A stretch of 39,990 nt of DNA from an uncultured Chitinophagaceae bacterium (lineage in GTDB: Bacteria; Bacteroidota; Bacteroidia; Chitinophagales; Chitinophagaceae). The notes beneath the pieces were generated by a model. That model was not told the DNA's origin. It ran no database searches and saw only the letters and a program-made list of their open reading frames with translations. A program made the translations under genes and the position numbers. This document shows positions 4,552-39,990 of this stretch, in pieces; position 1 is the stretch's first letter, and each line of letters starts with the position of its first letter. Location: assembly GCA_903881425.1 (NCBI GenBank), contig CAIRTF010000162.1, positions 1-39,990 on the forward strand. Reading direction: 5' to 3'.

Positions 4552-5736
4552 TTACGAGATAGAAGAACTGCAAAAAACTTTATAATCTTTCTGGACTTTT
4601 TTTGAATAAGATTTTGCAAAAGACAATAATGCATTTCTCCATTGCTTGTGATTGTTGGCTAATTCAATTAATTCATCTGCAGTGGAAGATTTTTTTCTAC
4701 CAGAACTGCGCAATTGCCCGGATGCTGCCACTTCTGCCATGGTTTGCAAAATTGTTTCCAACTTATTTAATTTTCCTTTGCACAATACAAGATCCATTTT
4801 ATCGGCAGTAGGTTGTAATTGTTTCAACACAAAATATTTTTGTTCAAACAAAACCGGTTTAATGAAAGCAGGAGAAACATGCTGTACCATTTTCTGAATG
4901 TCCACTACCCTTTCTGCTTCATTGTTCCATTTAGGTTGTTTTAATTTGATGTACGGAATTAATGATGAAGTTTTAGCTTGTTTCATATCAACCAATACAT
5001 AATTTTTGTCTTTTCTTTTTTGCAATAACATTACATACCGTGGAATACCAATACTGCCGGTGCCTGCTATTCTGTAAGCAGTATCAATAAAATTATATTT
5101 CTTAGGATGATGTTGCTTTGACCATTCTTCAAAAAATTGCTGAATGGCTTTCTTTTTCTCCTCATTCAATGCAAATGCTCTTTTATTATCAATCAATAAT
5201 TGCAAAGAGCCTTTTTTTATGATGGTTCTTTCCTTAATTAAAGTTTTATTCGTTCTTGCACTAACCTGATCAATCAATTGCTTTAAAATCCCTTTCGCAG
5301 TTGGTCTTTCTACTACGATTGACTTTCCTTTTTGCAAAATAGTAATGTAAGTATCTAAGAAATTGTTAGCGATAATATCTGCCTTTGCTGATGTTAATTT
5401 CAAATCTATCGCAGCCAAATAAATACTGGTAACTGTTCTTGCGATTTCCCAGGTAGCAGGTGCTAAAATAGCTTCATCAAAATCATTCATATCAAAATAA
5501 ACCAGGCCATTATCACCTTTATATGTACCATAATTCTCTAAATGCAAGTCGCCGCAAACCCATGCCTTGCTTACATCCTGCCAATTCAGTTCTTTAATAA
5601 AATCTTCATAAAACAAATGGCAAGTACCTCTGAAAAACCGAAAAGCACTATGCGACATGGCTTTATATTTTAATGCCAGATAATTCGGATCCCGATCTGC
5701 ATTAAAATTTTTAATTCGCTCAATTACATTGTTCAT
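4552..5736 (-). CDS. DUF2252 family protein (kinase-like fold)
   Basis: This 394-residue protein shows the DUF2252 signatures FRFFRGTCHLFYEDF (about residues 32-46), WVCGDLHLENYGTY (about 59-72) and VYFDMNDFDEA (about 79-89). The GDLHLEN and DMNDFD segments resemble the catalytic HGDLHxxN and metal-binding DxD loops of aminoglycoside phosphotransferase-like kinases, so a small-molecule kinase role is possible but unproven. The ATG at 5736 lies just before the conserved region. A near-consensus -7 box (TATCTTTC on the minus strand, 5755-5762) sits upstream. It is divergent from the aldolase gene. Confidence 0.8.
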   Translation of the reverse strand: MNNVIERIKNFNADRDPNYLALKYKAMSHSAFRFFRGTCHLFYEDFIKELNWQDVSKAWVCGDLHLENYGTYKGDNGLVYFDMNDFDEAILAPATWEIARTVTSIYLAAIDLKLTSAKADIIANNFLDTYITILQKGKSIVVERPTAKGILKQLIDQVSARTNKTLIKERTIIKKGSLQLLIDNKRAFALNEEKKKAIQQFFEEWSKQHHPKKYNFIDTAYRIAGTGSIGIPRYVMLLQKRKDKNYVLVDMKQAKTSSLIPYIKLKQPKWNNEAERVVDIQKMVQHVSPAFIKPVLFEQKYFVLKQLQPTADKMDLVLCKGKLNKLETILQTMAEVAASGQLRSSGRKKSSTADELIELANNHKQWRNALLSFAKSYSKKVQKDYKVFCSSSIS

Positions 5737-32882: not shown

Positions 32883-33293
32883 TTATAGTGTAGCATTCAG
32901 CAGTGGTGCATCTTTCAACATCTTATAAAAATCTTTCTGCTTGGCAAATGCCTGTAATGAATTTAAATGATTTTGATGATGCATATCTGTTCCCACAAAA
33001 TCAATCATCTCATTTTTCAATAATTTTTTAGCAATCTTTTTTACACTGCCTCCGTAATAACCAGCAAGCGATAAAATATTCAACTGAAATAAGCACCCTC
33101 TTTCTTTCAGTTCAGTATAAAAATTAAAATTGGAGTGATAGTAAGAATATCTTTCAGGATGCGCCAATATGGGTTGTAATCCCAATAATTTTAAATCAAA
33201 GATTACTTGCTGTAAATAAGGCGATGAAGCCATGTAAGACATTTCAATTAATATATAATTATCACCAAAACATAGCAACTGATCACCTCTTTT
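32883..33293 (-). pseudogene. 3' fragment of a CpsB/YwqE-like PHP phosphatase
   Basis: The frame encodes only the C-terminal half (about 136 residues) of a CpsB/CapC-type tyrosine phosphatase, which is normally about 245-255 residues. The retained blocks are GDQLLCFGDNYILIEMSYM, LQPILAHPERYSYY (HPERY motif) and FQLNILSLAGYYGG with MIDFVGTDMHH. The N-terminal metal-binding H-x-H and ID-D-G motifs are absent. No ATG stands at the break; translation could only start from TTG 33278. Upstream the sequence changes into a DegT aminotransferase in another frame. An intact enzyme would dephosphorylate the Wzc-type kinase encoded at the right edge; this fragment should be inactive. Confidence 0.8.
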
Positions 33294-33763
33294 AGCTGAA
33301 TTCCTTTCGCAATAAATTTATTTTTTATTGAAGGTCTGTTCACCAATTCATTAATCACTTTATAATCACAAGGCCATCCTGCAAAATCAACAGGTATAAT
33401 AGCTTTTGTTTTTTCGGTGATGGCAGCTTCAATTTTATCTACATCAATATTAAAATCTTCTCCCACATCAACCATGATTACTTTAGCTCCAATATGCATT
33501 GCGGCTAATGCGGTTGCACAATATGTATATGCAGGAACAATCACTTCATCGCCTCTTGTAATACCATACCAATGCAATACCAACATCATGGCAGATGTGG
33601 CAGAATTAACGCCCAGTGCAGCTTCTACGCCAACATATTTACACACTTCCTCTTCCAACGCTTTTACTTTCGGACCGGTAGTGATCCAACCGCTACGTAA
33701 TGAATCTAATACTTCATTCTCTACATCTGTATCATTATAAGGCGGCGAAAATGGAATGATCAT
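33248..33763 (-). pseudogene. 5' fragment of a second DegT/DnrJ-family aminotransferase
   Basis: Residues 1-155 match the N-terminal part of a DegT/DnrJ/EryC1/StrS sugar aminotransferase: IPFSPPYNDTDVENEVLDSL, GWITTGPKVKALEEEV, GVNSATSAMMLVLHWYGITR, GDEVIVPAYTYCATALAAMH and IIPVDFAGWPCDYKVINELV. The match stops at about 33298-33300, and the last 15 residues (QLKEVISCYVLVIIIY) are the CpsB sequence read in the wrong frame. About 230 residues are lost, including the PLP-binding lysine and the catalytic aspartate, so it cannot be active. It follows the GT2 gene at 33772 by 8 bp and was clearly once part of the operon. Confidence 0.85.
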
Positions 33764-33771
33764 GAATAAAT

Positions 33772-34761
33772 TTATTTTTTAGAAACAAAGCCTCTCAATG
33801 TTCCCCAACCATAACTGAAGTGGAATCCAAAGAATATAAACGGCAAAAATATTTTTCTATTGTCATTATCTTCACTCATTGATAAAGCAGCAACAATCAT
33901 CCCTGCCAATAAATGCAGGGCGATGATAAATCCAAATACTGAAATCAAGTAAAAAGTGTTCTTGAAAAGAATTTCTACAATACCAACTATCAAACAAGCA
34001 AATAACGACAATACAAAAACAAATGGAACAAAATGGTGAATGCGCATACTCCTTTTATGCATAAAAAAACTTTTGGCATTCCAGAAACCACCACGATATC
34101 CATACTTGAATAATTTATTTAAATCTGCAGGGGGACGATAGAAACATTTTGTCTTCCATGTACAATATAATTGATGACCGGCATCAATCAATCGCTGATT
34201 CATATCGTTGTCCTGATTGCGTTCCAGCATTTCATTATAACCGCCAATATCCAATAATGCTTGCTTTTTGAAAACAGGAAAATTAACTGAGTGAACATAT
34301 CCTTCTCGCATTACACGAAACGAATTTCCTGAAACACCAAAACTACTAAGCATTGCCCACTCGCATAATTTTGCTTGAGTTGTTGAATAAGCAGATTGCG
34401 TAATGACCCTGCCAGAGCAACCAACAGAATTGGTTGCAATCAAATCATCATAGCAAGCTTGTAAATAATTTTTATCATATGCACTGTGTGCGCCTAATAT
34501 TGCTACATACTCTCCTTTGGCTTCCTTTAACCCAATATTAAATGCGAATGGTGTTTTACGTTTTGGATTATCAATCAATCTTACATTCGGAAATTTTTCA
34601 GTATACTCTCTAATGATGTTTCTTGTTTTATCTGTACTCATTCCATCACACAATAAAATTTCAATATCAAATGAATGATGTTCCTGTTGCAAAAAACTTT
34701 CAATAGTTTGCTGAATATATTTTTCTTCGTTAAAAACCGGACTGATAATAGAAAGAATCAT
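33772..34761 (-). CDS. GT2 glycosyltransferase with C-terminal membrane helices
   Basis: 329 residues. The GT-A domain reads LSIISPVFNEEKYIQQTIES, LLCDGMSTDKTRNIIREY (nucleotide-binding D), FNIGLKEAKGEYVAILGAHS, and the acceptor-side block LERNQDNDMNQRLIDAGHQL (ED-like general base region). It resembles ExoA-type enzymes that extend lipid-linked repeat units at the inner membrane. Two or three hydrophobic helices near residues 240-315 anchor it. The ATG overlaps the stop of the upstream aminotransferase (ATGA at 34761-34758), so it belongs to that operon. The linkage it makes is unknown. Confidence 0.88.
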   Translation of the reverse strand: MILSIISPVFNEEKYIQQTIESFLQQEHHSFDIEILLCDGMSTDKTRNIIREYTEKFPNVRLIDNPKRKTPFAFNIGLKEAKGEYVAILGAHSAYDKNYLQACYDDLIATNSVGCSGRVITQSAYSTTQAKLCEWAMLSSFGVSGNSFRVMREGYVHSVNFPVFKKQALLDIGGYNEMLERNQDNDMNQRLIDAGHQLYCTWKTKCFYRPPADLNKLFKYGYRGGFWNAKSFFMHKRSMRIHHFVPFVFVLSLFACLIVGIVEILFKNTFYLISVFGFIIALHLLAGMIVAALSMSEDNDNRKIFLPFIFFGFHFSYGWGTLRGFVSKK

Positions 34762-35864
34762 TTTGAATAAAATGCTTTAATAGTTTCAGCCACATAATTC
34801 ATTTGAGTTTCTGTCAACTCCGGAAACATAGGCAGGGAAAGGATTTCATCTTTATATTGATTGGAAACAGGAAAATCATTCTCGGTATAATGCAAATATT
34901 TATACGCTTCCATTATGGGCAATGGAACAGGATAATGAATAGCCGTTTCAATTCCATTTTCTTTTAAATATTTCGCTAATGCGTCACGTTGTTTTGCTCT
35001 GATGACATACAAATGATAAGTATGCTTTGTATTAGGGCGAAGTTTTGGAGTGATCACTTCATCAATTCCACTTAAAATTTTTGTATAATAAGCTGCATTC
35101 GAAATTCTTTTGTTTGTCCACTCAACTAAATGAGGAAGTTTAGCAGAAAGAATTGCTGCCTGCAATCCATCTAATCTTGAATTGATGCCTTCAATTTGAT
35201 GTTGATGTTTAATTAATGCGCCATGTCTTGCATACATTCTACATGTCTCAGCCAAAGCATCATCATTGGTAATAATGCAACCTGCATCTCCGTAAGCACC
35301 TAAATTTTTTCCGGGATAAAAACTAAAAGATGCGGCAATACCTCTTAATCCTGCTCTTATATTATTGTATTCGCTTAAATGCGATTGTGCACAATCTTCA
35401 ATTAAGAATAATTGATGCTTATCGCAAATGGATTTAATCGTTTCTATGTCACACATCTGCCCTTGCAAATGCACAGGCATGATGGCTTTTGTTTTAGCAG
35501 TGATTTTTGCTTCAATTAATTTTTCATTGATGGAATAATACTCAGCATCAATATCCACAAATACAGGCGTGGCACCGGTTTGAGAAATAGTTTCACTGCT
35601 GCTGATCCAACTATTGGCAACCGTAATCACTTCATCGCCTTTGCCAATGCCCAACATCTTCATAATAATATACAATGAATCAGTTCCGTTTGCACAACTA
35701 ATGCAATGCTTCACACCATATAATGTTGCAAAATCTTTTTCAAATTGATTCACATATTTACCGCCAATAAAAGCTGTTTCAGTAATTACATTTTCGATAG
35801 CTGTATCAATTTGCTTTTTGATGGATTGATATTGCAATTTCAAATCAACAAAAGGAACATTCAT
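34758..35864 (-). CDS. DegT/DnrJ-family aminotransferase, WbpE-like
   Basis: A PLP-dependent nucleotide-sugar aminotransferase of 368 residues. The N-terminus MNVPFVDLKLQYQSIKKQID is typical. The Schiff-base lysine is K186 in SFYPGKNLGAYGDAG, the pyridine-binding aspartate is D157 in LIEDCAQSH, and CANGTDSL (57-64) binds phosphate. With the adjacent Gfo/Idh dehydrogenase and hexapeptide acetyltransferase it forms the WbpB-WbpE-WbpD set, which oxidises C3, transaminates it and acetylates the amine to give a 2,3-diacetamido uronic acid nucleotide. FdtB-type transfer on dTDP-keto-fucose is an alternative. It lies 15 bp after the acetyltransferase. Confidence 0.88.
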   Translation of the reverse strand: MNVPFVDLKLQYQSIKKQIDTAIENVITETAFIGGKYVNQFEKDFATLYGVKHCISCANGTDSLYIIMKMLGIGKGDEVITVANSWISSSETISQTGATPVFVDIDAEYYSINEKLIEAKITAKTKAIMPVHLQGQMCDIETIKSICDKHQLFLIEDCAQSHLSEYNNIRAGLRGIAASFSFYPGKNLGAYGDAGCIITNDDALAETCRMYARHGALIKHQHQIEGINSRLDGLQAAILSAKLPHLVEWTNKRISNAAYYTKILSGIDEVITPKLRPNTKHTYHLYVIRAKQRDALAKYLKENGIETAIHYPVPLPIMEAYKYLHYTENDFPVSNQYKDEILSLPMFPELTETQMNYVAETIKAFYSK

Positions 35865-37363: not shown

Positions 37364-37392
37364 TTCCACTTTGTTTTTAGATAAAGAGAAGA

Positions 37393-38241
37393 TCAATCAA
37401 CTCTAAATTGATCTCTTTGATCTTCAACATATTTTTTAATTAATGACTTGGTCTTAAAATAATCTCTTGTTCTTTTTGCAAAGCCTTTTGTTTGATTGAA
37501 TAATTGCTTTACATCACTCTTCATTCCATTTAAACCACTCTGATATTGTTTGGATGGCAAGCCGGTTGTTAGCATAAAAGCAACTTCTTCTTTAGCTCGC
37601 CTGTTCAAAATTTGCTTTTGCGTTAACTTTTTATGATACAAATAAAACAAAGGAATATTTGCTTTAATCTTATATCCTGCTTTTAACACTTGATATGACC
37701 AAATCTTATCCTCACTATAAAAAGTTTTTTCGTCGTATTTATAATATTCCCAAACAGATTTTCTAATAAACGCACAACTATTTACTGTACCATATAACCA
37801 AATTTTTTGGATATCTAAATCTTCTTCATCATAACTTAATATTGCAGGCTTGTTTAAAAATGCATTCATTGCTTTTGATGGACTATCTGCCGTTACAAAT
37901 TTTAATCCTGCAATTTTATCATCATCAAAATGTTCAACTGCTTTTTGTAAAAAATTATCACTCAATAAAAAAACATGAGAACTTAAAATCAAAATAAATT
38001 GACCGCTACAATGCTCTATTCCAAAATTAAGCGCCTTACCATAAGTAAATTCTTTTCGTGGCAATATTTCCACCCTGCAACCATAACATTTTGCTATTTC
38101 CAATGAGTTATCATCACTTTCGTTATCAACAACAATAATTTCAATTTCAAAATCTACTTGTTGAGATCGCAATGCCTTTAAGCAAACATTCAGTTCATTT
38201 GCTTCATTCAGATTTCTAATTAAAATTGAAATAAGTATCAT
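37393..38241 (-). CDS. GT2 glycosyltransferase, rhamnosyltransferase-like
   Basis: 282 residues with a single GT-A domain: ISILIRNLNEANELNVCLKA, IEIIVVDNESDDNSLEIAKC (nucleotide-binding VDNxS), LPRKEFTYGKALNFGIEHCS and FILILSSHVFLLSDNFLQKA. No membrane helix is evident, and the C-terminus is basic and probably membrane-peripheral. The block FTYGKALNFGIE is common in rhamnosyltransferase-type enzymes, but the donor cannot be set from sequence. It begins after a 246-bp stretch holding gene remnants and is followed by the WbpB-like gene 29 bp later. Confidence 0.85.
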   Translation of the reverse strand: MILISILIRNLNEANELNVCLKALRSQQVDFEIEIIVVDNESDDNSLEIAKCYGCRVEILPRKEFTYGKALNFGIEHCSGQFILILSSHVFLLSDNFLQKAVEHFDDDKIAGLKFVTADSPSKAMNAFLNKPAILSYDEEDLDIQKIWLYGTVNSCAFIRKSVWEYYKYDEKTFYSEDKIWSYQVLKAGYKIKANIPLFYLYHKKLTQKQILNRRAKEEVAFMLTTGLPSKQYQSGLNGMKSDVKQLFNQTKGFAKRTRDYFKTKSLIKKYVEDQRDQFRVD

Positions 38242-38287
38242 ATTCTAAATAACTGCAGTGACCTGAAAAAGTATTAATACAGCAAAA

Positions 38288-38371
38288 TTATTTAACCTTA
38301 ATTAATTTAGACTTTGGATGAAATATGTAAAACCAAACTCCTGCAATAACTCCTTTAATTTCTTGTTTCAT
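38288..38371 (-). pseudogene. Short open frame of 27 residues, likely remnant
   Basis: It reads MKQEIKGVIAGVWFYIFHPK followed by SKLIKVK and a stop. It starts 2 bp after the stop of the Gfo/Idh remnant, the spacing of an ordinary operon junction. I do not recognise it with confidence. The HPKS-KLIK part could be the beginning of a hexapeptide acyltransferase, cut short. It may be non-coding. Confidence 0.3.
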
Positions 38372-38373
38372 GG

Positions 38374-38481
38374 TTATTTTCCTGATCGTGATACAATAGA
38401 AATATTCTTGTATCCAAGAGAAAGCATATTGCTCAGATGCCTTTTACCAATAGAACCCAAGCCAACTAATAGAATATTCAA
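38374..38481 (-). pseudogene. N-terminal remnant of a Gfo/Idh-type oxidoreductase
   Basis: A 35-residue frame begins with TTG at 38481, 7 bp after the upxY stop, and reads LNILLVGLGSIGKRHLSNML followed by SLGYKNISIVSRSGK and a stop. The GLGSIGKRHLSN segment is the Rossmann NAD-binding fingerprint of Gfo/Idh/MocA dehydrogenases, which are normally about 330 residues. All else is missing. It is therefore the 5' end of a deleted gene that once stood second to upxY. Confidence 0.7.
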
Positions 38482-38487
38482 CTAAAC

Positions 38488-39101: not shown

Positions 39102-39990
39102 TTAAGCCTGTTGTTTATTAAAAATGGAAAAAGCTTTTTGTAAGAAGTTTTTCCTTTTTTCATTTAAATAATAACTGTAGCTGTAGCCAAATCCAAAGCT
39201 GTAACCATAACTTCCATCCTTTTTAATACCATTCACCACAACACCCATATGCTTGAATTTTTTATCCTTATATAATTTTTCGATATAAGGCAGAATTGCT
39301 TTTAATGTAAATCTGTGACGAACTACAAACAATGTTAAATCAGCAAATTTTTCCAACAGTAATGCATCCGTAACCAATCCCACGGGTGCAGTATCTATAA
39401 TAATATAATCGAAATGATTTCGTAAATACTCAAATAATGAAATGGTTTTTTGATTCATTAAAAGTTCTGCGGGGTTTGCCGGAACCGGACCGGAAGTAAT
39501 GATAGAAGTATTATTCAATGCAGGCAATACTTGAATAATATTTTCGATATCTTCTTCGCCGGCTATATAACTTGACAATCCCTTATCATTAGAAATATTG
39601 AGTGTTTTAGCCATTCGCGGATTGCGCAAATCGAATTCAAGAATAATCGTTTTAGCACCGGTAACATTTAACGAATTGGCCAGATTGATGGATACAAAAC
39701 TTTTTCCTTCGCCACTTACAAAAGAAGATAGCATAATGGTTTTTAATTGCCTGCCGGGTACTACATAATGCAAATTGGTTCTTAATAACCGGAATTGTTC
39801 AGAAATAGGATTTCTGCTGCGTGTATCAACAATCACTCCTTTTTTCCATTTTTGATATGACAACTCTCCTACTATCTGAACGGATGTGGCTGTTTCAATT
39901 TCGTTTTTATCAGATATTTTGTTATTCAAGAAATCACTCAAAAACATAATACCCGAAGGAATTAATATGCCTAATAAAATTGCTAATAAT
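39102..39990 (-). CDS. Wzc-type polysaccharide co-polymerase / BY-kinase (N-terminus beyond edge)
   Basis: The frame is open through the right edge. The first visible residues (LLAILLGILIPSGIMFLSDF) are the second transmembrane helix of a Wzz-type domain, so this is the C-terminal part of a full-length Wzc, not a free kinase. The BY-kinase follows: ISEQFRLLRTNLHYV, Walker A SFVSGEGKSFVSINLANS, Walker A' IILEFDLRNPR, and Walker B DYIIIDTAPVGLVTDA. The tail has a tyrosine cluster (YGYSFGFGYSYSYY), the usual autophosphorylation site. The kinase controls chain length and export of the capsule. Its expected CpsB-type phosphatase survives only as a fragment at 32883-33293. Confidence 0.92.
   Translation of the reverse strand, partial: LLAILLGILIPSGIMFLSDFLNNKISDKNEIETATSVQIVGELSYQKWKKGVIVDTRSRNPISEQFRLLRTNLHYVVPGRQLKTIMLSSFVSGEGKSFVSINLANSLNVTGAKTIILEFDLRNPRMAKTLNISNDKGLSSYIAGEEDIENIIQVLPALNNTSIITSGPVPANPAELLMNQKTISLFEYLRNHFDYIIIDTAPVGLVTDALLLEKFADLTLFVVRHRFTLKAILPYIEKLYKDKKFKHMGVVVNGIKKDGSYGYSFGFGYSYSYYLNEKRKNFLQKAFSIFNKQQA

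Follow-up and report, generated by a model that had tools for sequence, protein, structure and literature searches.

A probable recent deletion joining remnants of an aminotransferase and a CpsB-like phosphatase gene in a polysaccharide locus of an uncultured Chitinophagaceae bacterium

In an uncultured member of the Chitinophagaceae, a locus for a capsule-type polysaccharide has, in all probability, undergone a recent illegitimate deletion (that is, one with short or no homology) of ~3.83 kb, as deduced by comparing its sequence with those of its relatives. The deletion would leave the first ~156 codons of a UDP-sugar aminotransferase gene joined, in a different frame, to the final ~136 codons of a gene for a CpsB-like phosphatase, and the same event would take out a phosphoglycosyltransferase and a PglF-like dehydratase. 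With comparable confidence, we infer that this is a real deletion, present in the cells and dominant in the sampled population.

The DNA under study, referred to here as the window, is an entire contig of 39,990 bases (C162, CAIRTF010000162.1), which belongs to a draft assembly (G000) of 2.75 Mb in 217 contigs, rated 99.4% complete. The relatives compared were found by sequence and are metagenome-assembled genomes (MAGs) of uncultured Chitinophagaceae, among which G001, with its locus L066, is of the same genus. The family-wide comparison of the junction covered 394 Chitinophagaceae genomes, one genome per species.

The junction and its two remnants

On the minus strand of the window, a DegT sequence starts at 33763 and runs to ~33295, where the frame switches and the sequence goes on as the C-terminal half of a CpsB/YwqE phosphatase (from ~33293 to 32886). 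In blastn comparisons with G001, the alignment of the DegT part reaches 33295 (86% nucleotide identity) and that of the CpsB part begins at 33293 (79%), which places the junction at 33293-33295, opposite positions 5649 and 1817 of L066, respectively. The out-of-frame join had originally been predicted at 33298-33300, only a few bases away from the measured break.

The first remnant (33295-33763, minus strand) is the N-terminal part of a DegT/PseC/ArnB-like sugar aminotransferase, comprising ~156 of 405 amino acids and showing 89% amino-acid and 86% nucleotide identity with the intact 405-aa gene of G001. Its open reading frame (ORF; 33763-33248, minus strand) matches positions 4-138 out of 360 of the Pfam family DegT_DnrJ_EryC1 (PF01041; E 3e-45), corresponding to the N-terminal third. 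Since the DegT and CpsB pieces lie in different frames, this ORF adds a few foreign codons in an out-of-frame tail (33248-33294, minus strand, from the ORF listing) and stops at 33248. The motif of the PLP lysine, SFHAVKNLTTAEGG, lies beyond the break in the intact gene, and the DegT sequence of the window, which has neither this motif nor the C-terminal domain, does not classify as an aminotransferase.

The second remnant (32883-33293, minus strand) is the C-terminal part of a CpsB/YwqE-like tyrosine phosphatase of the PHP family, with ~136 of 244 amino acids and 83% amino-acid identity with residues 106-244 of the G001 protein. Its ORF (33278-32883, minus strand) matches positions 102-200 out of 234 of CpsB_CapC (PF19567; E 9e-26), the C-terminal half of the family. 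In Cps4B, three metals are bound by His5, His7, Asp14, His42, Glu80, Glu108, His136, Asp199 and His201 (PMC2777267). The remnant retains the equivalents of the last four of these residues and has lost those of the other five, among them the HxH motif, His42 and Glu80, leaving the three-metal ligand set incomplete. With five of the nine metal ligands missing, activity of the remnant is very unlikely, judging from its sequence. The loss of essential parts from both proteins, as originally proposed, is borne out. For annotators, the ORFs at 32883-33763 are best read as remnants and not as functioning enzymes.

Intact loci in related genomes and the size of the loss

A 700-base query over the junction matches G001 as two pieces, on one contig, on the same strand and in the same order: window positions 33700-33295 correspond to G001 6054-5649, and positions 33293-33001 to G001 1817-1525. 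The two pieces are colinear and separated by a gap of 3,831 bp, which comprises the last 749 bp of the DegT gene, two middle genes and the first 324 bp of the CpsB gene (244 aa when intact). A single deletion removing about 700 bp of DegT, about 350 bp of CpsB and any genes lying between them had been anticipated from the window itself, with sizes close to those measured, and alignment with close relatives has now located the intact DegT and CpsB genes and two genes between them. These encode a Bac_transf phosphoglycosyltransferase of 200 aa and a Polysacc_synt_2 (PglF/FlaA1-like) dehydratase of 657 aa, both missing from the window. The order DegT, phosphoglycosyltransferase, dehydratase and CpsB, with all four genes intact, occurs in G001, G025, G014 and two additional MAG contigs (L088 and L090). 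G025 also gives a two-piece match to the junction query, G014 has the DegT and CpsB genes in the same order with similar spacing, and in two other genomes (G224 and G076) a short query over the junction splits into two halves whose matches lie ~3.8 kb apart.

Next to the DegT remnant lies an intact family 2 glycosyltransferase gene (33772-34761, minus strand), whose product is 84.8% identical over its full length to that of L066 6126-7115, the same neighbour in G001. It is followed by a second, intact DegT aminotransferase gene (34758-35864, minus strand), which was considered as a spare copy and rejected, as its product is a distant paralogue (~27% identical to the first DegT protein) with an orthologue of its own in G001. 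Farther along, at 37366-38487, homology to both G001 and G025 breaks off at the start of a Gfo/Idh oxidoreductase gene and is lacking upstream of it. The interval between this gene and that of an UpxY-type antiterminator holds a single glycosyltransferase gene in the window, against six or more genes in G001, one of them for a Wzy_C polymerase/ligase. Neither wzx nor wzy was seen in this part of the sequence; the assembly encodes one PF13440 flippase-like protein on another contig (C64). At the right edge, the C-terminal part of a Wzc-type tyrosine autokinase (39102-39989, minus strand) shows both the autokinase domain (TIGR01007, 146.7 bits against a cut-off of 108) and a Tyr-rich tail, DGSYGYSFGFGYSYSYYLNEK. 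The contig ends inside this gene, so that the remaining export genes fall out of view.

A real deletion or a product of assembly

A first question is whether the missing genes sit on another contig of the same bin, and neither DNA nor protein searches found them there. The G001 DNA that is missing from the window (3.86 kb) has no counterpart in the nucleotide search of the assembly except for a 45-bp match, an informative absence, as the same type of search picks up homologues at the G001 level where they are present. At the protein level, the dehydratase gives weak, general SDR matches only (E 1e-5 or worse), the CpsB search returns the remnant alone, with no second CpsB in the assembly, and the phosphoglycosyltransferase search returns one distant Bac_transf protein, 41% identical. 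The latter (22269-22823 of contig C201, L101) is the sole remaining phosphoglycosyltransferase of this family above the Pfam cut-off in the assembly, and may prime another glycan.

The main rival to a real deletion, which we regard as unlikely, is an assembly artefact or a minority haplotype, where the population would be mainly intact and the contig would follow a chimeric or rare path. The assembly is, after all, a draft in 217 contigs. However, a misjoin by a k-mer assembler requires a long exact overlap, and the break-point sequences in the relatives, AAAGGAATTCAGC on the DegT side and AAAAGAGG on the CpsB side, have at most a few bases in common. A misjoin at a repeat was likewise rejected, as repeat searches within 500-600 bp, on the window side and on the G001 CpsB side, turned up none at the junction. 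Base composition takes no step. Moreover, the two halves of the window are colinear pieces of a single locus of the same genus and do not come from two organisms, and none of the other contigs, in an assembly rated 99.4% complete, carries the middle part in intact form. A chimeric assembly, already offered as the alternative in the original prediction, becomes less likely when each side of the join has a colinear match in the same genus and no long sequence is shared at the join itself.

Neither the junction nor the fused arrangement was found in any other of the 394 genomes of the family, where an intact fused architecture, which would speak against decay, had been looked for; viral contigs, searched for the exact junction, gave no match, as expected. 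A junction confined to the window is what a mutation of this genome alone would produce, and an artefact of this assembly alone would produce it just as well.

Age of the deletion

Neither remnant has a frameshift or an internal stop. In comparisons with G001, dN/dS is ~0.04 for the CpsB remnant and 0.08 for the DegT remnant, against 0.08-0.13 for three intact neighbours, all of them rough values with dS near saturation. When G025 is taken as the outgroup, amino-acid changes are shared out between the window and G001 branches as 7:7 for CpsB and 5:8 for DegT, and this comparison gives no sign of an older decay with relaxed selection. By this rough measure, the sequences indicate that both pieces have been under functional-gene evolution for almost the whole period since they diverged from G001. 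Open frames together with a divergence like that of functional genes point to a recent loss, although remnants of such recent appearance would also result from an artefact or a minority haplotype, with the genes in the cells still whole.

Another rival is a functional fused or recoded gene, where the DegT N-terminus and the CpsB C-terminus would be joined by frameshifting and serve a new role; both pieces do have open frames, but their frames differ, essential catalytic parts are missing from each half, the fusion is absent from the other genomes searched in the family, and selection on the remnants looks like a history shared with intact genes, the window branch being neither more changed nor more conserved than expected, all of which leaves this reading hardly credible.

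Functional consequences

Judged by protein family and closest solved structures, the trio affected by the deletion (dehydratase, aminotransferase and phosphoglycosyltransferase) would make a UDP-sugar of the 4-amino-4,6-dideoxy-GlcNAc type and load it onto the lipid carrier. If the deletion is real, the loss of the dehydratase and the aminotransferase probably prevents synthesis of the UDP-sugar, and that of the phosphoglycosyltransferase probably keeps the capsule-type glycan from being started. From its gene content, the glycan of the window locus is likely no longer initiated.

The loss of CpsB had been proposed to remove the phosphatase opposing the Wzc-type kinase, and so to lock or alter capsule regulation. 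The reasoning is fair, and both the absence of a second CpsB from the assembly and the nature of the right-edge protein, a BY-kinase with a Tyr-rich tail, add to it. However, the phosphoglycosyltransferase is lost as well, along with the sole close dehydratase, so that the loss of the phosphatase is probably a second effect, subordinate to that of priming.

A more speculative proposal, to which we give a low probability, is that of a capsule-off allele which phages, for instance, have selected and which shares its natural population with alleles that are still intact; if true, the window would record the ongoing loss of a surface glycan in an uncultured lineage. The deletion, if real, offers one clean and recent case of loss of surface-polysaccharide priming in uncultured Chitinophagaceae, an ordinary subject whose general picture it leaves unaltered.

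Comparison with known systems

By family, the intact trio of the relatives has the same three activities as the UDP-diNAcBac-type priming system of Campylobacter (PglF-PglE-PglC), and likewise resembles EpsC-EpsN-EpsL of Bacillus subtilis (pathway in PMC10653937). The closest solved structures are WlaL (5bju) for the dehydratase, ArnB (6ewj) for the DegT aminotransferase and the diNAcBac-1-P transferase (8e37) for the phosphoglycosyltransferase, which is of the small type. In contrast to these systems, the window has neither dehydratase nor phosphoglycosyltransferase and its aminotransferase is cut. In the case of the PHP-family tyrosine phosphatases CpsB, Cps4B and YwqE (PMC2777267), an alignment of the intact protein of the relatives with YwqE and Cps4B extends over the metal-ligand motifs, whereas the window copy differs in having the C-terminal half only. 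Finally, the loss of capsule by mutation of priming genes, such as wcaJ of Klebsiella, has been shown experimentally in relation to phage (PMC7784688), and phage-driven loss of capsule is known in that genus. The window would have in common with wcaJ mutants the loss of the capsule-initiating transferase, but its case is read from DNA only, and the link with phages belongs to Klebsiella.
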